Shown here one piece after another: positions 40,157-49,069 of a DNA stretch of 57,501 nt; position 1 is the stretch's first letter; each line of letters begins with the position of its first letter. This stretch comes from Lachnospiraceae bacterium (GTDB lineage: Bacteria; Bacillota; Clostridia; Lachnospirales; Lachnospiraceae): contig JAAVAE010000026.1 of the NCBI GenBank assembly GCA_014804245.1, positions 1 to 57,501 on the forward strand, given 5' to 3'. The translations under genes and the position numbers were made by a program. The notes beneath the pieces are model-generated. The model was given only the letters and a program-made list of their open reading frames with translations, was not told where the DNA came from and did not search any database.

Positions 40157-40423
40157 ATGCATGAATTTGATGATGCGGTATTGCAGTGCTTTTTAGACAA
40201 TCAGGGGCAGTTGTTCCCGGAGGAAGATGTGGCTTCCAATCTGGAGGAGGCGGAGTCCTTTCTTGAGGAATGTCTGGCGGTAGTAGTGAACTCTATTGAG
40301 GAAGTGTGGGATTTCTTTGAGGAGGAAGGCATTGATGTGGATGGTGCCAGAGGAGAAGAAATTCTTGAGGCTGACGAGGTTTTTGACATTGGAGACGGAA
40401 GATATCTGATTGTCGAAGGATAG
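40157..40423 (+). CDS. Small acidic protein of unknown function
   Basis: 88 aa, very acidic (many Glu and Asp) and free of membrane helices. The recognisable pattern is FDDAVLQCFLDNQGQLF at the start and ADEVFDIGDGRYLIVEG at the end. Homologues are sometimes labelled glyoxalase, which nothing in this sequence supports. AAAGGAG precedes the ATG. It is followed by a strong terminator that closes the core block before the EPS switch. Confidence 0.65.
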   Translation: MHEFDDAVLQCFLDNQGQLFPEEDVASNLEEAESFLEECLAVVVNSIEEVWDFFEEEGIDVDGARGEEILEADEVFDIGDGRYLIVEG

Positions 40424-40460
40424 GGTTAAAAGGTCAATTGAATCATGAAGAAAATTTTTA

Positions 40461-40508
40461 AAAAGCCTTCAAGGCAGTAACGGGATTGCTGCTATGAAGG
40501 CTTTTTTA
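40461..40508. terminator. Bidirectional terminator to the left of the invertible segment
   Basis: AAAAGCCTTCA (40461-40471) pairs with TGAAGGCTTTT (40495-40505), with an inner stem GCAGTAA/TTGCTGC. T-runs follow on the plus strand and, read the other way, on the minus strand. It would also stop leftward transcripts leaving the switch region. Confidence 0.8.
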
Positions 40509-40514
40509 TTTTAT

Positions 40515-40543
40515 TTTTCATTGAATTTCTAGATTTACGAAAA
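40515..40543 (+). other. Left recombination core site 1
   Basis: Arm ATTTACGAAAA (40533-40543), spacer TTTCTAG (40526-40532) and a weaker left arm TTTTCATTGAA (40515-40525). The spacer and adjoining arm are the inverse of the site at 42072-42100. It is read here as a crossover core for the tyrosine recombinase. Confidence 0.65.
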
Positions 40544-40565
40544 ACAGTATAAAAAACAGAGAGTT

Positions 40566-40594
40566 ACTTCATAGAATTTCTAGATTCACGAAAA
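40566..40594 (+). other. Left recombination core site 2
   Basis: A second copy in direct orientation, 51 bp after the first: spacer TTTCTAG (40577-40583), right arm ATTCACGAAAA (40584-40594), left arm ACTTCATAGAA (40566-40576). The left arms of the two copies share TTCAT-N-GAA. Confidence 0.65.
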
Positions 40595-40647
40595 GAAACA
40601 AAAAAAGTAGTAAATGCGTGAACTATGTAGCAAAAATCACTATATGA

Positions 40648-40676
40648 ACTATATTACAATTTTGGAAAAGAGTCAA
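40648..40676 (-). promoter_or_regulatory. Outward-facing promoter inside the invertible segment
   Basis: Minus strand TTGACT (40676-40671), exactly 17 bp, TATAGT (40653-40648). It points left, away from the recombinase and the EPS genes, and in this orientation its transcript runs into the terminator at 40461-40508. After inversion it would face the EPS operon. Confidence 0.7.
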
Positions 40677-40760
40677 GTGTGTATTTGAAATTATACATGA
40701 AAGAAATAAAGTGAGTAAAACTTATGAAATAAGAACCATAAAACAGAAAAATTGGTATAT

Positions 40761-40789
40761 TTGTTTATAACTATTGTTCGTATTTTAAT
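40761..40789 (+). promoter_or_regulatory. Possible promoter of the recombinase gene
   Basis: TTGTTT (40761-40766), 17 bp, TTTAAT (40784-40789). It is a weak match, about 45 bp before the ATG. Confidence 0.4.
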
Positions 40790-40833
40790 TTTTTAACCGT
40801 CAAATAACTGGTCATGAAGAAAGGAGTTTACAA

Positions 40834-41979
40834 ATGCCAAAGAGAGGAATCAATATTTACAAACGAAAGGATGGGCGCTGGGAGGGGCGTATTAAAAAAG
40901 AGGATGCAGAATATGCTGTAGGATGTGCTTCCCGAAAGTACATTTCCGTATATGGAAAGACTTATACTGAAGTGAAAAGTAAAATGGAAAAAATGAAAAG
41001 AAGTAGAAAAGTGGGAGGAAAAAACCGTCACACATTGGAGGAAACAATGAATATCTGGCTTAAGGAGCGGAGTTCAAGATGGAAACAGACAACTTATGCG
41101 ACCTATTGCCAGATGGCAAACAAATATATTATCCCACTGCTGGGCAATGTCCAAATAGACTGTGTAGACGAACAGATGATAGAACAGTTTCTTTCAGAAA
41201 TTGATAAGGCCAAGCATGGAAGTCCTCTTTCGGATTCCTATCTGCGGAATATATGTGCCGTCATGCTTCGGGCGATGAGCTATGTAAGGAAGAAATATCA
41301 TTATGATATGGACATTCCTGAGAACCTGATTACGCCTGTCAGACAGTCCCAGATTATACTTCCAAAGAAGCAGGATATGGCGGTTTTGGAGAAATACTTG
41401 TTGGAAAATTCTGAAAATGATACCTGTCTTGGCATACTTACGGCTTTTTATACAGGAATTCGAATCGGAGAGGTATGCGCGCTCACATGGGATGATGTCA
41501 ATCTAAGCGACGAGGTGATTTATGTCCGTAAAAATTTACAAAGAGTAAAATCCGATGACACAAAAGATGGTAATACCCAGATTTTGATCCAGACGCCCAA
41601 AACCTCCACTTCATTCAGGATTATCCCAATTCCGCCCATCCTTCTTTGCCATTTGAAAGAACATAAGAAAGGAGATGGGCAGTACATCATCAAAGGAAAG
41701 AAAAAACCGTGGACAGAGCCAAGGACGCTGCAATATCGTTTTGCGCAGATTTTGCAGAAATGCCGCATTGATAATTTCAATTTTCATATGCTGAGGCATG
41801 CCTTTGCGACTCAATGTGTAGAACAGGGCTTTGATGTCAAGAGCTTGAGTGAAATTTTAGGGCACAGCAGTATACAAGTCACGCTTAATTTGTATGTCCA
41901 CTCTAATATGCAGCGAAAAAAACAACTTATGGAAAAGTTTGATATATCTATATATCAGAGTTATATCTCTGTAGTATAG
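40834..41979 (+). CDS. Tn916-type tyrosine recombinase (probable DNA invertase)
   Basis: 381 aa. The N-terminal MPKRGINIYKRKDGRWEGRI segment matches the arm-binding domain of Tn916-like integrases. The core-binding domain spans about residues 65-160. The catalytic residues are Arg in GIRIGEVCALTW near 212, Lys in an FRIIPIP strand region near 260, HMLRHAFATQ near 316 (His-x-x-Arg), GHSSIQVT near 345 and the nucleophile Tyr in LNLYVHS near 354. No excisionase or other transfer gene accompanies it. Core-like sites flank the gene in inverted orientation, so inversion rather than integration is the likely job. AAAGGAG precedes the ATG. Confidence 0.9.
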   Translation: MPKRGINIYKRKDGRWEGRIKKEDAEYAVGCASRKYISVYGKTYTEVKSKMEKMKRSRKVGGKNRHTLEETMNIWLKERSSRWKQTTYATYCQMANKYIIPLLGNVQIDCVDEQMIEQFLSEIDKAKHGSPLSDSYLRNICAVMLRAMSYVRKKYHYDMDIPENLITPVRQSQIILPKKQDMAVLEKYLLENSENDTCLGILTAFYTGIRIGEVCALTWDDVNLSDEVIYVRKNLQRVKSDDTKDGNTQILIQTPKTSTSFRIIPIPPILLCHLKEHKKGDGQYIIKGKKKPWTEPRTLQYRFAQILQKCRIDNFNFHMLRHAFATQCVEQGFDVKSLSEILGHSSIQVTLNLYVHSNMQRKKQLMEKFDISIYQSYISVV

Positions 41980-42007
41980 AATTTTAATACCCGTCAATAT
42001 TACCGTC

Positions 42008-42040
42008 AGCAGGGCAAATATTTTGTCCTGCTTTTCTTAT
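42008..42040 (+). terminator. Terminator after the recombinase gene
   Basis: AGCAGG-G-CAAA pairs with TTTG-T-CCTGCT (42008-42032, one G-T pair) around TAT, then TTTCTT. It lies inside the bracket of inverted sites, so it isolates the EPS operon from recombinase transcripts in this orientation and would be moved away by inversion. Confidence 0.85.
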
Positions 42041-42071
42041 TTTATCAGCCTTATGCTTTGTGATAGATAGC

Positions 42072-42100
42072 ATTTCGTAAATCTAGAAAATTTACGAAAT
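42072..42100 (-). other. Right recombination core site (inverted)
   Basis: Perfect 11-bp arms ATTTCGTAAAT (42072-42082) and ATTTACGAAAT (42090-42100) around the 7-bp spacer CTAGAAA (42083-42089). A spacer of 7 bp between inverted arms is typical for tyrosine recombinase crossover sites. Read on the minus strand its spacer is TTTCTAG, identical to both left sites. Confidence 0.75.
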
Positions 42101-42142
42101 TAGGCAAGCAAAAATCAGAGATGGAAAATCAAGGAAGAGCAG

Positions 42143-42877
42143 GTGAGGTTTGTGGATTCTTATATAGATATTCATTCCCACATTTTGCCCCAAATAGACG
42201 ATGGAGCAGAAAATTTTGAGATGAGTATGAAAATGCTGCATATTGCTAAGGAAAATGGAATATGCGGGATTATTTTGACACCTCATAATAAGCCCATGCA
42301 TCACAATGCCAGCCCCGGAACAATTCAGAATCTAATCAAAAAACTGGAAATGGAACTGCTGCACAGTAAAGTGGAAATTCAGTTGTATGCAGGAAATGAA
42401 ATTTATTATCGTAGTGATATTTTGGAGATGCTGGAAGAAGGAAAGGCATGTACCATGGCAGGTTCTTCTTACGTTTTGATGGAATTTGGTCCTATGGATG
42501 ACTTTGAGCATATAAGAAGAGGACTTTATAAGGTGCTTTCAGGAGGATATCGTCCAATTATTGCCCATATTGAGCGATACAGGAACATTTGCGCAAAAGA
42601 GGAAAGAGTAGAAGAACTAATTGAAATGGGATGTTATGTGCAAGTGAATGCCGGAAGCATTATGGGACAATATGGACTTGGAACAAAGAATTTCGCGAAA
42701 CGTCTGCTTAGGGAAAGACAGGTCCATTTTGTGGCGACGGATGCCCATGACGCTGATAAAAGAAAACCGGATATAGGCAGCTGTGTGCGGTATATCAGCA
42801 GAAAATATGGAGATGCATTTGCCAGAGCGCTTGTATATGAAAATCCTGTTCATGTCATTAAGAATGAATACATATAG
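42143..42877 (+). CDS. cpsB: CpsB/CapC-type tyrosine-protein phosphatase (PHP fold)
   Basis: 244 aa, GTG start at 42143 with AAGGAAG upstream (a GTG at 42152 is an alternative). Metal-binding motifs of the PHP fold are DIHSHILPQIDDGAEN near residue 9, ILTPHNKPMHH near 48, and VATDAHDADKRKP near 193. It should dephosphorylate the CpsD kinase. It is the first EPS gene after the switch, and no promoter is visible between the right core site and its start. Confidence 0.92.
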   Translation: MRFVDSYIDIHSHILPQIDDGAENFEMSMKMLHIAKENGICGIILTPHNKPMHHNASPGTIQNLIKKLEMELLHSKVEIQLYAGNEIYYRSDILEMLEEGKACTMAGSSYVLMEFGPMDDFEHIRRGLYKVLSGGYRPIIAHIERYRNICAKEERVEELIEMGCYVQVNAGSIMGQYGLGTKNFAKRLLRERQVHFVATDAHDADKRKPDIGSCVRYISRKYGDAFARALVYENPVHVIKNEYI

Positions 42878-42888
42878 GGAGAAAAGGG

Positions 42889-43617
42889 ATGGAAAATCAG
42901 AAAGTAAATGATGAAATTGAGATAGACTTGCTGGAGGTATTCAATGTGCTTCTTGGCAGGATATGGATAATCATGGGGGCGGGCCTGCTTTTGGCGCTTA
43001 CTGGGTTTGCAATAAGCAAATTTGTCCTTACGCCCACCTATAAATCTACCACGAAGATATACATACTCAATAAATCGGAAAGTCAGACGGTTACATACAG
43101 TGATGTACAGCTGGGGACACAGCTGACCAAAGACTATGCAGAACTGATTAATAGCCGTTATGTGTTGGAAGAAGTAATCCAGATGCTGTCGCTGGATATG
43201 GATTATGGTGAGATGCTCCATATGGTCAGCGTGGACACGCCTGCGGATACGCGTATCGTTTCCATTACAGTTGAAGACACGGACCCTGCGCAGGCAATGA
43301 ATATTGCAAACTGCGTCAGGGAGGCAGCAAGCAATCATATCCAGAATGTTATGGATATTGAAGCGGTAAATGTGGTGGAGACAGCCAACATGCCTACAAC
43401 AAAGGCAAGTCCCAATGTCATGATGTGGACTCTGGCCGGCGGTGTCATAGGAGTATTCCTTTTGTGTGCCGTCATTTTGATTCAGTATCTTATGGATGAT
43501 ACCGTCAAGTCTTCTGAGGATGTGGAGAAGTATCTGGGACTTGGCACCCTGGCACTTATTCCGGTGGTGACAGAGGAAAATAGCAAAAAAAAGAAAAAGA
43601 AGAAAAAACGTAAGTGA
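42889..43617 (+). CDS. cpsC: Wzz/CpsC-type polysaccharide co-polymerase
   Basis: 242 aa with two membrane helices (about residues 27-46 and 179-200) flanking an extracytoplasmic domain, as in CpsC/YveK. The cytoplasmic C-terminal tail (KKKKKKKKRK) is strongly basic. It sets chain length and activates CpsD. Confidence 0.9.
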   Translation: MENQKVNDEIEIDLLEVFNVLLGRIWIIMGAGLLLALTGFAISKFVLTPTYKSTTKIYILNKSESQTVTYSDVQLGTQLTKDYAELINSRYVLEEVIQMLSLDMDYGEMLHMVSVDTPADTRIVSITVEDTDPAQAMNIANCVREAASNHIQNVMDIEAVNVVETANMPTTKASPNVMMWTLAGGVIGVFLLCAVILIQYLMDDTVKSSEDVEKYLGLGTLALIPVVTEENSKKKKKKKKRK

Positions 43618-43657
43618 CTTTTAAGAAGCAAAATATGGGAAAGGTATAGGAATAAAG

Positions 43658-44485
43658 ATGCAGAATGTAAGGCTCCAATTTGGAAAAAAAGAGGATTATC
43701 GCACAAAAGAAGCATTTAAAACACTGCGTACAAATATTGAGTTCTGCGGCGGAGATGTAAAGGTGATTGCAGTCACCAGCTGTACGCCCAATGAAGGAAA
43801 GTCAAGTATCGCCATGGAAATGGCAAGGGCATTTTCTGAGGCGGGATATAAGGTCATTCTGGTTGATGCCGATATGCGCAAATCGGTGCTTGTGGGACGT
43901 TACAAAACGGGCGGTGTAAAGCTGGGGCTGACTCAGTGTCTGGCGGGAAAAGCGGATTACAGGGATGTGACCTGCGAAACCAATATTCATAACATGTATG
44001 TAATTTTTTCAGGACCGGTTCCGCCAAATCCAAGCGAACTTTTGGGCAGTGAAAGATTTGTAGATGTTGTCGGAAAGCTTAAGGAGGACTATGACTATGT
44101 AATCATTGATACGCCGCCATTAGGGAGTGTCATTGATGCAGCCGTAGCGGCAAAAAGCTGTGACGGAACCATACTCGTGGTAGAAAACAATGCAATCAGC
44201 TATAAATTCGTGCAAAAGGTGAAGGACCAGCTGGATAAGGCTGACAGCCGTATATTAGGAGTTGTGCTCAATAAAGTGGATATGACCGGAAAAGGTTACT
44301 ACGGTCATTATGGAAAGTACTACGGAAAATATTATGGAAAGTACTATGGCAGATATGGGGAAGACAATATTGAATCCAAGGCATCTGCGGAGATTGTCAG
44401 GGCATTTCGGGAAGACCTTGATGATGACAGGGAAGAAGCGGGAGAAAATTCAGGAAGTGATATAGAGTACATAGAAGATATCTGA
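43658..44485 (+). CDS. cpsD: CpsD-type bacterial tyrosine kinase with Tyr-rich repeat tail
   Basis: 275 aa. Walker A is TPNEGKSSIAMEMA near residue 46, Walker A' is VDADMRKS near 70 and the Walker B-type strand is YVIIDTPPLGSVID near 148. The C-terminal tail has a tandem KYYG motif four times in a row (GHYGKYYGKYYGKYYGRYG), the substrate cluster for autophosphorylation. The tail runs into an acidic end. Known CpsD tails are Tyr-rich, but such a regular array is notable. Confidence 0.93.
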   Translation: MQNVRLQFGKKEDYRTKEAFKTLRTNIEFCGGDVKVIAVTSCTPNEGKSSIAMEMARAFSEAGYKVILVDADMRKSVLVGRYKTGGVKLGLTQCLAGKADYRDVTCETNIHNMYVIFSGPVPPNPSELLGSERFVDVVGKLKEDYDYVIIDTPPLGSVIDAAVAAKSCDGTILVVENNAISYKFVQKVKDQLDKADSRILGVVLNKVDMTGKGYYGHYGKYYGKYYGKYYGRYGEDNIESKASAEIVRAFREDLDDDREEAGENSGSDIEYIEDI

Positions 44486-44526
44486 CAATACCAAAGATGA
44501 CGTATAAGGTATGCAGGGGGGTGCAG

Positions 44527-45330
44527 ATGAAGCAGAGCAGAGTGATTAACATAGCGCTTTTGGTAATAAACGTGATTTTGATAGCAGTCTGTGCGGTCAT
44601 GTATTTGAGAACTGACAGAATCGCGCCTGAATTTGAATTCCAGGCGGCGGATGTGATTTACCGGAGGGAGATGAATACGGCGGAACTTCTTGCAGGCATC
44701 ACTGCTTATGACCGGGCGGACGGTGATGTGACAGACCGCATCGTAATCGAAAAGATTACAGAGAACCTAAAGGATTCCACCGCCGTGGTATTTTATGCAG
44801 TGAGCGATCGGGCCGGCAATGTGGCGCAGACGTCAAAATTGTTTCAGGCTGTATTTGACAAAGGAGCCGAGAGCTTCATGGAGGCAGGTATCAACGCAGA
44901 GCTGAACCGGGATTTGACAGGCAGTGAAGGCAACGGGGAAGAAAAAGATGGACAGACGCAGCAGCCCTCTCCGACGCTCCAGCCTACTCCATCGGCTGCA
45001 CCGACAGTGGCACCTACATTACGTCCGGTGCCGACGGCGTCACCGCAGCCCTCATCAGAACCGGAACAAGAACCAGATGATAATTCCGGCTCCCCCGTCC
45101 TTACCCTAAAGGTTTCGGAGGTTAAGGTGAACGCAGGACAGGGACCTGCATGGGTAGATATCATTGGGACGCTTTCAGATGATGCAGATGATTATAACAC
45201 GCTTTTCCAGAATCTGAATGTCAGCAGATATGACAGAAATAAACCGGGTACCTATCAGGTCAGTGTTTACACGGAGGACTCTGATGGAAATAAGTCGCAT
45301 TCAGTCCCGCTTACGATAGTTGTCCAGTGA
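44527..45330 (+). CDS. Membrane-anchored Ig-like protein with Pro/Thr linker
   Basis: 267 aa from the ATG at 44527 with GGGGGTG upstream. A signal anchor (residues about 5-23) precedes a bacterial Ig-like (DUF5011-type) domain, TAYDRADGDVTDRIVI. A Pro/Thr/Ser linker follows (PTLQPTPSAAPTVAPTLRPVPT), then a second beta domain of about 80 residues at the end. It would lie outside the membrane in the EPS assembly region. The role is unknown; it may be a scaffold or an adhesin-like partner. Confidence 0.75.
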   Translation: MKQSRVINIALLVINVILIAVCAVMYLRTDRIAPEFEFQAADVIYRREMNTAELLAGITAYDRADGDVTDRIVIEKITENLKDSTAVVFYAVSDRAGNVAQTSKLFQAVFDKGAESFMEAGINAELNRDLTGSEGNGEEKDGQTQQPSPTLQPTPSAAPTVAPTLRPVPTASPQPSSEPEQEPDDNSGSPVLTLKVSEVKVNAGQGPAWVDIIGTLSDDADDYNTLFQNLNVSRYDRNKPGTYQVSVYTEDSDGNKSHSVPLTIVVQ

Positions 45331-45365
45331 TAAAACATTTGTAAATGCTTTATAGGAGTATATAG

Positions 45366-46496
45366 GTGAAGAGTAAGAAAAAAAGGGATATACAAGCGGA
45401 TCAGGAAAAGAATCTGCTGCTGGATCCCGAAAAAGTGGAAAAAAAGAAAAAACAGAAGAGAAAAAAGCGACTGGTCATGATTCTATGCGAGGCAGCTGTT
45501 TTTGTGGGGATTGTGATAATTTCTTTCCAGATTCTGCGAGTGATAGGAAAATCCAGTCTGCAGATTAAGGCTGAGGCAGCAGCACCGCAGCTTGCAACTG
45601 GCCAAGAGACTTTGACGGAAGAGGAAAAGAGCCGGTGGCAGGAGGGATGGGTAAAGTATCAGGACACCATCTATGCTTACAATGAGGATATCATGACCTT
45701 TCTCTTCATGGGAATAGATAAGAACAGTGATGTAAAGCAGGAGGAAGAGGGGACCAACGGAGGACAGGCGGATGCTTTGTTCTTGGCCGTCATGAATCCT
45801 CATGACCATACAATCAAAATCATTGGAATCAACCGTAATACAATGACGGACATTGATATTTATAACGAAGAGGGAGCCTATGTGACGACTGCAAAGGCGC
45901 AGATTGCAGTGCAGCATGGATTTGGAAACGGTATGGAAGAGAGCTGTGCGTTCCAGCAAAAAGCGGTGCGCAAGCTGTTCTATAATCTGCCGGTTCATGG
46001 CTATGCCGCCATCAATATGAGTGCAATCTCCACCATCAATGATGCAGTGGGAGGCGTGGACGTGACGGTACTTGAAGATCTGACCAGAGTGGATAAGACG
46101 CTGGTGAAAGATGCAAAGGTCCGCCTTATGGGAGAAAGCGCTTTCTGGTATGTAAAAGCCCGCGACACCAGTGAATTTGGCTCCGCTGATGCACGGCTTG
46201 CAAGACAGAAACAATATCTGAATGCCTTTATTGGCTCTGCAAAACAGGCAGCAAAAAAGGATATTACAACAGTAATGGATTTATATCAGGCAGTTTCCAG
46301 GCAGATGGTGACAAACATCACTGTGGATGAAGTGGCATATCTTGCCCCCATATTAGCGGATTACCAGTTTGACGAAAGTGGCTTCTATATGCTGAAAGGG
46401 GAAACTGTCATGGGGGAAGAGTTTGAAGAGTTTTATGTGGATGAAGATGCTTTGTATGAGATGATTCTTGAAATCTTTTATGAGGAAGCCAGATAA
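45366..46496 (+). CDS. LytR-CpsA-Psr (LCP) family glycopolymer ligase
   Basis: 376 aa, GTG start at 45366 (AGGAG upstream). A basic cytoplasmic segment rich in Lys precedes a TM helix (residues about 38-58). The LCP domain has LFMGIDKNSD near residue 115, GINRNTMTDIDIY near 154 and AISTINDAVGGVDVTV near 219, with Arg residues of the pyrophosphate site. It should attach polymer to the cell wall. Confidence 0.92.
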   Translation: MKSKKKRDIQADQEKNLLLDPEKVEKKKKQKRKKRLVMILCEAAVFVGIVIISFQILRVIGKSSLQIKAEAAAPQLATGQETLTEEEKSRWQEGWVKYQDTIYAYNEDIMTFLFMGIDKNSDVKQEEEGTNGGQADALFLAVMNPHDHTIKIIGINRNTMTDIDIYNEEGAYVTTAKAQIAVQHGFGNGMEESCAFQQKAVRKLFYNLPVHGYAAINMSAISTINDAVGGVDVTVLEDLTRVDKTLVKDAKVRLMGESAFWYVKARDTSEFGSADARLARQKQYLNAFIGSAKQAAKKDITTVMDLYQAVSRQMVTNITVDEVAYLAPILADYQFDESGFYMLKGETVMGEEFEEFYVDEDALYEMILEIFYEEAR

Positions 46497-48126: not shown

Positions 48127-48189
48127 TAAAAAAAGATTTTATTAAGGGCAGGAAATTTTTTGCCTGTAACGAAAGCTAGGGCGCAAGCT

Positions 48190-48612
48190 ATGGATTATAA
48201 AGTTATTAAGATTCGGACAGTCATGGAAGAAACGGAATCCGGTCTTTCTTTCTTGGAGGGAGAACGTGATATTCCTTTTAAAATCAATCACCTGTACTGT
48301 ATTTTTGAAAAAGAAAAAAACAATCAAAATGGATTTCTAAATCATAAACAAAGCTGGCAATTGCTATTATGCCCGTATGGATCTATTGAGGTGCTGGTTG
48401 ACAACGGGATAAAAAGAGAAAGAATTTCGCTTGATAATCCATCTATAGGACTCATCCTTCGCGCTGACATTTGGCGTGAGATGATTTGGAAAGAAAAGGG
48501 AAGTGTCCTATGTATAGCATCTTCTTCGGATTATGATGTTGATAATTTTTACGGAGATTACGCAGCATATCTTGATTATGTTAGAAAGCAAAAGCAGCCG
48601 GAACGCAAATAG
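48190..48612 (+). CDS. FdtA/QdtA-like cupin, divergent, one catalytic His replaced
   Basis: 140 aa of the sugar 3,4-ketoisomerase (WxcM/FdtA) cupin family, which turns dTDP-4-keto-6-deoxyglucose into the 3-keto isomer. Recognisable parts are DIPFKINHLYCIF, NHKQSWQLLLCPYGS and IGLILRADIWREMIW. In the usual GxHAHK motif the first His is Leu here (GFLNHK) while the second is kept. It may be inactive or altered. The start at ATG 48190 has only a weak ribosome site. It lies 25 bp before a second copy of the family. Confidence 0.75.
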   Translation: MDYKVIKIRTVMEETESGLSFLEGERDIPFKINHLYCIFEKEKNNQNGFLNHKQSWQLLLCPYGSIEVLVDNGIKRERISLDNPSIGLILRADIWREMIWKEKGSVLCIASSSDYDVDNFYGDYAAYLDYVRKQKQPERK

Positions 48613-48637
48613 CTGTCTTGAGTTTAAGGAGGAAAAA

Positions 48638-49069
48638 ATGAATAAGTATGCCGCAGGCGTAAAGGCGCTTACATTCCCTGATTTTAATACAGATGAAAAT
48701 TCTGCCGGATTTATTGAAATTGTGGGGATGAAAGATGTTCCATTTGAAATTAAAAGAGTATTTTATATTTTTGGAAAAGGAAATGTCGGTCTTGTACGGG
48801 GACGGCATGCTAATCGTAAATCAGAGTTTGTTTTGTTTAATGTATCCGGCAAGAGCAAGGTTAAGATTGTTGATGAACAACAAGAAACGAAAGTTTATGA
48901 ATTGAATCATCCTAATGAAGGAGTATACCTTCCCCGCATGGTATGGAAGGAAATGTATGATTTTACGGATGATTCGGTATTGATGGTTCTTACGAATGAA
49001 TACTATGAGCCGGAAGAGTATATTCGAAATTTTGACGATTTTGTAGAGGAAATTAAGGCAGAAAAATGA
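48638..49069 (+). CDS. FdtA/QdtA-like sugar 3,4-ketoisomerase
   Basis: 143 aa from the ATG at 48638 (AAGGAGG upstream). The cupin matches the family through [55 protein letters not shown]. In the usual GxHAHK motif the first His is kept but the second is Asn (GRHANR). It is followed with an ATGA overlap by the aminotransferase that would use its product, so the pair makes dTDP-3-amino-3,6-dideoxyhexose (Fuc3N- or Qui3N-type). Confidence 0.82.

Follow-up and report, generated by a model that had tools for sequence, protein, structure and literature searches.

Is the exopolysaccharide (EPS) operon headed by cpsB in a Lachnospiraceae draft genome switched on and off by inversion of the DNA in front of it? 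The operon lies in the window, our term for the whole 57,501-bp stretch analysed (bases 1–57501 of contig C26; draft genome of 2.93 Mb in 59 contigs, 59.7% complete), and a first-pass annotation had proposed that the segment before it is an invertible promoter switch that encodes its own recombinase and is seen in the OFF state. Our follow-up favours the same reading: with a probability of about 0.87, the segment 40526–42089 (or 40577–42089) would be a self-encoded invertible promoter cassette, with the EPS operon OFF as sequenced. The proposal gained support from locus-specific spacers, a conserved outward promoter, a paralogue and an orthologue in which the promoter stands ON, EPS homologues in the opposite orientation, and an isolate assembly that contains both orientations.

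Inverted core sites around a recombinase gene

Three core sites, each built as 10-7-10 bp, surround a tyrosine recombinase gene. Two lie to the left as direct repeats, L1 (40516–40542, + strand; an outer arm, the spacer TTTCTAG at 40526–40532, and the inner arm ATTTACGAAA) and L2 (40567–40593, + strand; spacer TTTCTAG at 40577–40583), and the right site R (42073–42099, − strand; spacer CTAGAAA at 42083–42089) is inverted with respect to both. This orientation predicts inversion of 40526–42089 by L1 × R or of 40577–42089 by L2 × R. Inverted complementarity is 85% for both pairs, over 27 nt for L1/R and over 26 nt for L2/R, and R reads ATTTCGTAAAT-CTAGAAA-ATTTACGAAAT. The spacers thus lie where the first-pass annotation had placed them, the right site has the perfect 11-bp arms and 7-bp spacer attributed to it, and the 17-bp match over spacer and arm, claimed as exact for L1, holds at all three sites when one position is allowed to be T or C. 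The bracketing sites, the recombinase gene and the promoter described below are confirmed observations.

The 17-mer of spacer and inner arm, TTTCTAGATTYACGAAA, has three exact matches in the draft genome, all at L1, L2 and R. Two further matches appear elsewhere when two mismatches are allowed, and the reversed pattern, used as a control, gave 0 forward matches and 1 reverse match. The perfect core TTTCGTAAAT-N7-ATTTACGAAA is found at R only, even with up to 3 mismatches, and the search of the draft genome yielded no other target of the recombinase beyond the two-mismatch words. The best inverted 27-mer score of the window is 23. Of 800 mismatched-locus pairs, 9 scored at least as high, and 400 mononucleotide shuffles peaked at 21; the window alone is therefore significant, not extreme, and the case rests on the whole-genome word count and on the family.

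Two left sites with identical spacers occur in the window and likewise, 51 nt apart, in a relative whose recombinase is 81% identical. They allow an addition to the inversion reading, in which L1 and L2, direct and 51 bp apart, recombine to delete a 51-bp piece, or the choice between them gives two alternative ON leaders. We regard this addition as doubtful: four other loci (G018, G028, G030, G026) have a single left site, and no 51-bp deletion product was seen.

Promoter, terminators and the predicted ON state

Inside the inverted sites, an outward promoter, TTGACT-17-TATAGT (40648–40676, − strand), points left in the present orientation as had been described; a second outward promoter-like site, TTTACT-18-TATAAT (40690–40719, − strand), is a consensus match only. 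Promoter-like sites are not rare in this stretch (10 found, 6.5 expected, sd 1.8). The left-pointing promoter faces a terminator-like hairpin left of the cassette (40460–40506), which carries T runs both ways and folds well on either strand (−26.5 and −22.4 kcal/mol, z −6.4 and −7.5; 0 of 200 shuffles fold as well on either strand), in agreement with its earlier description as a bidirectional terminator. The recombinase gene is followed by its own terminator before R (42008–42032, + strand; −15.1 kcal/mol, z −5.2), which was also the single hit of a terminator consensus scan of the stretch (1 found, 1.3 expected; the left hairpin went unlisted).

The first gene of the operon, cpsB/capC (42152–42877, + strand; CpsB_CapC, Pfam PF19567, E 5.3e-96), begins 52 nt beyond R, and, as the earlier reading had it, the promoter consensus scan gave no + strand site between R and cpsB. 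Two of its figures needed correction. A start of cpsB at 42143 was not borne out, the likely start being the GTG at 42152, which aligns with the ATG of the paralogue and the orthologue; and the promoter, thought to come to lie about 100 nt upstream of cpsB after inversion, would by our computation have its −10 element 133 nt (L2) or 184 nt (L1) from that GTG.

A second EPS operon lies outside the window on the same contig, 19 kb downstream (G000:C26:61363-62257; L024, L180), with no recombinase adjoining. Its cpsB2 is 77% identical to cpsB and is faced by a homologous promoter (84% over 51 nt, E 3.1e-8) with a −10-to-start distance of 141 nt. The upstream regions of window and paralogue align at 169 when the window is inverted at L2, at 149 when inverted at L1 and at 141 uninverted. 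In an orthologue from the same genus (L168, genome G020), the 88-aa gene that precedes the cassette is followed by cpsB (78%) with no recombinase between them and with the same promoter facing cpsB; against it, the sequence before cpsB in the window scores 57 after in silico inversion at L2 and 20 uninverted, the best of 300 shuffles reaching 40. The promoter of the paralogue, the orthologue in G020 and the −10-to-start spacing after L2 inversion together indicate that the promoter belongs to cpsB.

The recombinase and its putative arm sites

The recombinase gene (40834–41979, + strand; 381 aa) lies, by the site positions, within the segment predicted to invert, and its product carries a Phage_integrase domain (PF00589, E 8.9e-26) and a PF14659 match (E 4.8e-12). 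R210, K256, H318, R321, H344 and Y354, which we take to be the catalytic R-K-H-R-H-Y residues, are among the columns invariant in 40 homologues, and together with the Pfam matches they support a normal tyrosine recombinase. Its closest named relatives, from Lachnospiraceae bacterium IMSAGC_005 and an uncultured Lachnospiraceae metagenome-assembled genome, are both 81% identical.

The best solved relative is 6emy ('Int protein', E 6.5e-17), presumably the Tn1549 integrase. The label 'Tn916-type' in the first-pass annotation is apt for the catalytic domain, to which 6emy is the nearest solved structure; an arm-binding N-terminus is only suggested, by the start of the predicted fold and by conserved CCGTCA repeats. 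An AlphaFold2 model (mean predicted local distance difference test, pLDDT, 86.1) places three strands and then a helix in residues 8–60, with residues 25–32 below pLDDT 50. Three strands and a helix are known from arm-binding domains. A phmmer search of residues 1–62 against the PDB gave no match.

CCGTCA, a putative arm-type binding site, occurs to the left of the gene at 40797–40802 and to the right at 41991 and 42003 (41991–42008), all on the + strand. Across 95 loci of the named and viral collections (window excluded, at least 5 loci under two ids), the repeat is found in the 100 nt preceding the recombinase gene in 75 (about 1.4 expected) and in the 130 nt following it in 67 (about 1.5 expected), in the same orientation on both sides. 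We read these repeats as putative arm-type sites; alternatively, they may serve as an operator. The word AGTAGTAAAT, which we take to be Tn916 arm-like, occurs once, at 40606, and is not used as evidence.

If the cassette works as its layout suggests, the recombinase it makes would bind the core sites, and probably also the putative CCGTCA arm sites on either side of its gene, pair R with L1 or L2 and exchange strands within the 7-bp spacer, flipping the segment. In the OFF state, the promoter would fire left into the bidirectional terminator, the recombinase gene would stop at its own terminator and cpsB would have no visible promoter; in the ON state, the promoter would lie 133–184 nt before cpsB and read into it. 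Promoter, gene and putative arm sites would move with the segment, only the outer half-sites staying put. Since the moving arms, gene and promoter would keep the substrate nearly equal both ways, reversal would need no separate directionality factor, and free reversibility is predicted. An excess of the OFF orientation could then come from selection or from outer-arm differences. Catalysis, switching in the strain, ON and OFF expression, reversibility and a phenotype are predictions.

Conservation of sites, spacers and promoter across the family

For each homologous recombinase gene, we set the 600 nt before it against the 700 nt after it and scored the best inverted 27-mer (threshold 23) in the 85 of 90 loci that had at least 150 nt on both sides, the 90 being the window, 80 named-collection loci and 9 viral-collection loci. 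A scan of viral contigs with the single protein found no relative, and one with alignment A1 found 12 loci, from which L147–L155 were taken in (L147 and L153 being too short for the site test) and L156–L158 left out. Inverted sites that agree at no fewer than 23 of 27 positions flank the recombinase in 59 of the 85 loci; among mismatched-locus pairs 9 of 800 reach this level, and of 400 mononucleotide shuffles none does. The arms are alike and the spacers vary between loci (TTTCTAG in the window, TTTCCAG in L068, TTTCATG in L069, TTTTAAG in L071, TTATATA in L009), each locus-specific spacer being paired with an inverted match across its gene, which is what site-specific inversion needs. The cassette design is not unique to the window locus.

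Promoters were scanned in the 64 loci with a site score of at least 22, using first-order Markov resampling and a 95% shuffle threshold. An outward promoter exceeded the threshold in 44 loci, compared with 5 for an inward promoter and 2 for the right end.

Orientation among EPS loci and possible signs of flipping

Orientation was counted in EPS-type loci with both sites and a known target, taking loci with double ids once (n = 15). Left out were L067 (window orientation, left site past the contig end), L073 (no site found), the G015 contig and second copies of double-id loci. Twelve loci are oriented as in the window, nine with a cpsB target (the window, L068, L069, L070, L071, L009, L089, L090, L092) and three with a LytR-type target (L033, L080, L081). 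Of these twelve, L070 comes from isolate 1XD21-87 and L090 from an isolate of Eisenbergiella porci. Two show the opposite, ON orientation, with cpsB 46 nt (L088) or 437 nt (L086) from the promoter-end site, and one shows both.

This last locus, L079 in isolate 28-4, is a scaffold in which two 1509-bp cassette copies with 2 mismatches face each other head to head, separated by a 200-N gap that starts about two bases past the spacer, at the onset of the outer-arm difference. One promoter end lies at the LytR-type EPS gene and the other at the opposite flank, so that both orientations are present in the assembly; such a result is expected from a mixed culture, and we regard it as suggestive. Contig ends offer similar hints. 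Contig G012:C141 breaks off at the final base of a site-like spacer ahead of cpsB, L075 stops precisely where its right site does, and in L125 the left contig end carries an inverted copy of the right outer flank. The G015 contig opens partway through a cassette-like leader and shows promoter-like sequence, site and cpsB in the ON order, with no recombinase on the contig. Together with L079, these contig ends and the ON-order contig are suggestive of flipping. A one-mismatch match in C4, tried as the other flank of the broken G012 cassette, sits 23 kb inside a 38-kb contig and appears to be a chance hit.

Alternative explanations

Several results weigh against an invertible cassette. Twelve of 15 EPS loci share one orientation, so inversion may be rare or strongly biased. 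The 28-4 arrangement could instead be a true inverted duplication, and no second case like L079 was found among the loci examined, long inverted repeats occurring only in L011 (= L031) and L051. Contig ends fall within 120 nt of a site in just 5 of 63 named-collection loci, and exactly at the site only in L125 among these, so assembly breaks at the sites are not general. Inversion at L1 barely improves the match to the paralogue (149, compared with 141 as it stands). In the family, 26 of 85 loci, including L085 and L087, fall below the site threshold, no significant outward promoter was found in 20 of 64, and at least 3 of the 44 positives (L077, L081, L092) use a TTGACG −35 that probably corresponds to the CCGTCA repeat in reverse. 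Only 13 of 95 loci have a strict terminator in the stretch from the recombinase gene to R, so the OFF state may be leaky at other loci.

Among the alternatives, the one that survives best is that the cassette once inverted and is now (almost) fixed codirectional with the recombinase, EPS being expressed weakly through read-through or placed under another signal. The orientation bias and the scarcity of strict terminators fit this account, as do a recombinase match in two frames in G030 and one with a stop in G060:C157. We nevertheless consider it unlikely for the window, where the open reading frame retains its catalytic residues and the spacer match is exact, and relatives in the ON orientation and the two orientations in the 28-4 assembly also argue against it.

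Far less probable is that the cassette is what remains of an integrated mobile element, its integrase acting in excision or integration and not in inversion. The protein is of integrase type, its nearest solved relative is an 'Int protein', and weaker tyrosine recombinase matches exist elsewhere in the same genome; but the segment holds no cargo other than the recombinase, the cassette, with a spacer specific to each locus, recurs at EPS operons in several species, and the L and R sites are inverted, not direct, which implies inversion and not excision. That the repeats are regulatory or chance palindromes, with the recombinase acting elsewhere, would suit an AT-rich region with common promoter-like sites and a score of 23 attained in 9 of 800 mismatched pairs, but we give this next to no credence given three exact sites in the draft genome, all at the cassette, the own-locus versus cross-locus scores, and spacers that covary in pairs.

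Spread of the family and target genes

Of 392 genomes sampled across the order, 55, covering 34 of 174 genera, have recombinase matches at E 1e-50 or better, and at 1e-40 matches occur in 10 of 37 genomes of the genus. Pfam scans of 83 of 90 right-side open reading frames (ORFs) and 25 of 46 left-side ORFs gave, as right-site neighbours, LytTR (11), response regulator (11), GHKL (9), CpsB (5), LRR_5 (4), HTH_3 (4), Wzz (3), LytR (2), BrxA (1), BrxB (1) and others. In a quick tree of 78 recombinases, the window clusters with the EPS loci L067–L071 (SH-aLRT, the Shimodaira–Hasegawa-like approximate likelihood ratio test, 98), and seven target labels, which we assigned from neighbours and blastp clusters, need 10 changes; by clade, targets thus appear largely stable, with several target changes. 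L085 and L087, whose recombinases group with those of L086 and L088 on the tree, have no recognisable inverted sites and are possible orphans.

On balance, we lean toward a single widespread family of promoter cassettes, self-inverting and target-agnostic, that spans Lachnospiraceae, Ruminococcus and Oscillospiraceae, in which the 7-bp spacer would act as a locus-specific address and which intergenic-inverton surveys would have missed. To a similar degree, we favour a common module of an integrase-type enzyme, arm sites and one outward promoter within about 1.3–1.8 kb, and it seems somewhat probable that EPS, two-component, surface-protein and anti-phage (BREX, IIG-like) genes are made phase-variable by it. 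One compact module might then serve many target genes, and an own enzyme with an own spacer per cassette could allow several switches to coexist in a genome and not recombine with one another. A few contigs hint that draft assemblies break at cassettes; were this a tendency, the family would be under-counted.

Several individual loci deserve mention. At L100:7174-8345, BrxA and BrxB (bacteriophage exclusion, BREX; PADLOC) begin beside the right site, a possible phase-variable phage defence, and at L129:3264-4961 a type IIG/II methyltransferase-like gene (PADLOC) is the second ORF past the right site. L101 has weaker LeoA/LeoBC-like matches (PADLOC), and L102 a SipW-type matrix protein below the curated cut-off. 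A gene pair, mostly of about 240 and 600 aa, stands beside the right site in L077, L082, L083, L084, L091, L106 and L111; the members tried had no Pfam match (L091, L077, L082) and no NCBIfam match (L082). L091 is from the isolate E. tayi DSM 26961. In L051 (G242) and L011 (G045), the recombinase lies between long inverted repeats (808 bp, 92%, and 166 bp, 93%, respectively) and related ORFs lie to either side, an arrangement that may form an either/or switch. L119, L120, L125 and L126 share near-identical sequence and a promoter-like stretch outside the right site, with different genes downstream, and the cassette there may act differently. At L029:7366-8483 (G030), the two-frame recombinase match breaks near residue 50, so the switch there may be locked.

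Relation to known inversion systems

The invertible segment of Hin in Salmonella also holds an outward promoter. Comparisons with published systems draw on passages of the papers cited. The Hin recombinase of S. Typhimurium is an example of a recombinase gene inside an invertible segment (PMC5903667), and the window cassette resembles this Hin/hix flagellar switch in carrying the gene of its own recombinase inside the DNA predicted to invert. Hin belongs to the serine recombinases (PMC11868660), whereas the window enzyme is an integrase-type tyrosine recombinase with putative arm sites and an EPS target; membership in the Hin family of serine invertases was accordingly rejected, the window protein being Hin-like only in its workings. 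The RecV switches of C. difficile (cwpV, flagella; PMC5903667) combine a tyrosine recombinase with an invertible element before surface genes in a member of the Clostridia, but there one enzyme serves several switches, whereas in the window family each cassette has its own enzyme and spacer.

Inversion-controlled capsule loci of gut commensals include those under Mpi of Bacteroides fragilis (PMC5903667) and the cps1 inverton of Akkermansia (PMC13343947); unlike in the window cassette, Mpi is a master serine recombinase, and both organisms belong to other phyla. The main text of the Akkermansia paper contains no mention of a recombinase (0 occurrences). Inverton group 139 and invertase group 35 of Clostridia (PMC11892184), in which invertons are tied by proximity to tyrosine-type recombinases, are likened to the window family by description only, the coordinates of the group 139 example spanning about 0.26 kb. 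The catalytic domain (6emy) and the putative arm-type repeats recall the Tn916/Tn1549 integrases, although the window cassette has no adjoining transposon genes and its sites are inverted.

PhaseFinder has been applied in the search for invertible intergenic regions (PMC11868660). A literature search over titles, abstract openings and passages returned no account of the cassette family, which does not establish its absence from print. For gut Clostridia, the cassette offers a concrete, testable predicted ON/OFF switch for an EPS operon.

Neighbouring genes

The later EPS genes (42889–46496, + strand) encode a Wzz-like protein, a CpsD-like tyrosine autokinase, a protein with weak Ig-like matches and a LytR-CpsA-Psr protein. 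To the left of the cassette, the 88-aa gene (40157–40423) has no Pfam match and is 99% identical in a relative with the 81%-identical recombinase. Further along the window, at 48160–49069, lie two neighbouring FdtA (WxcM-like) genes whose called frames overlap.

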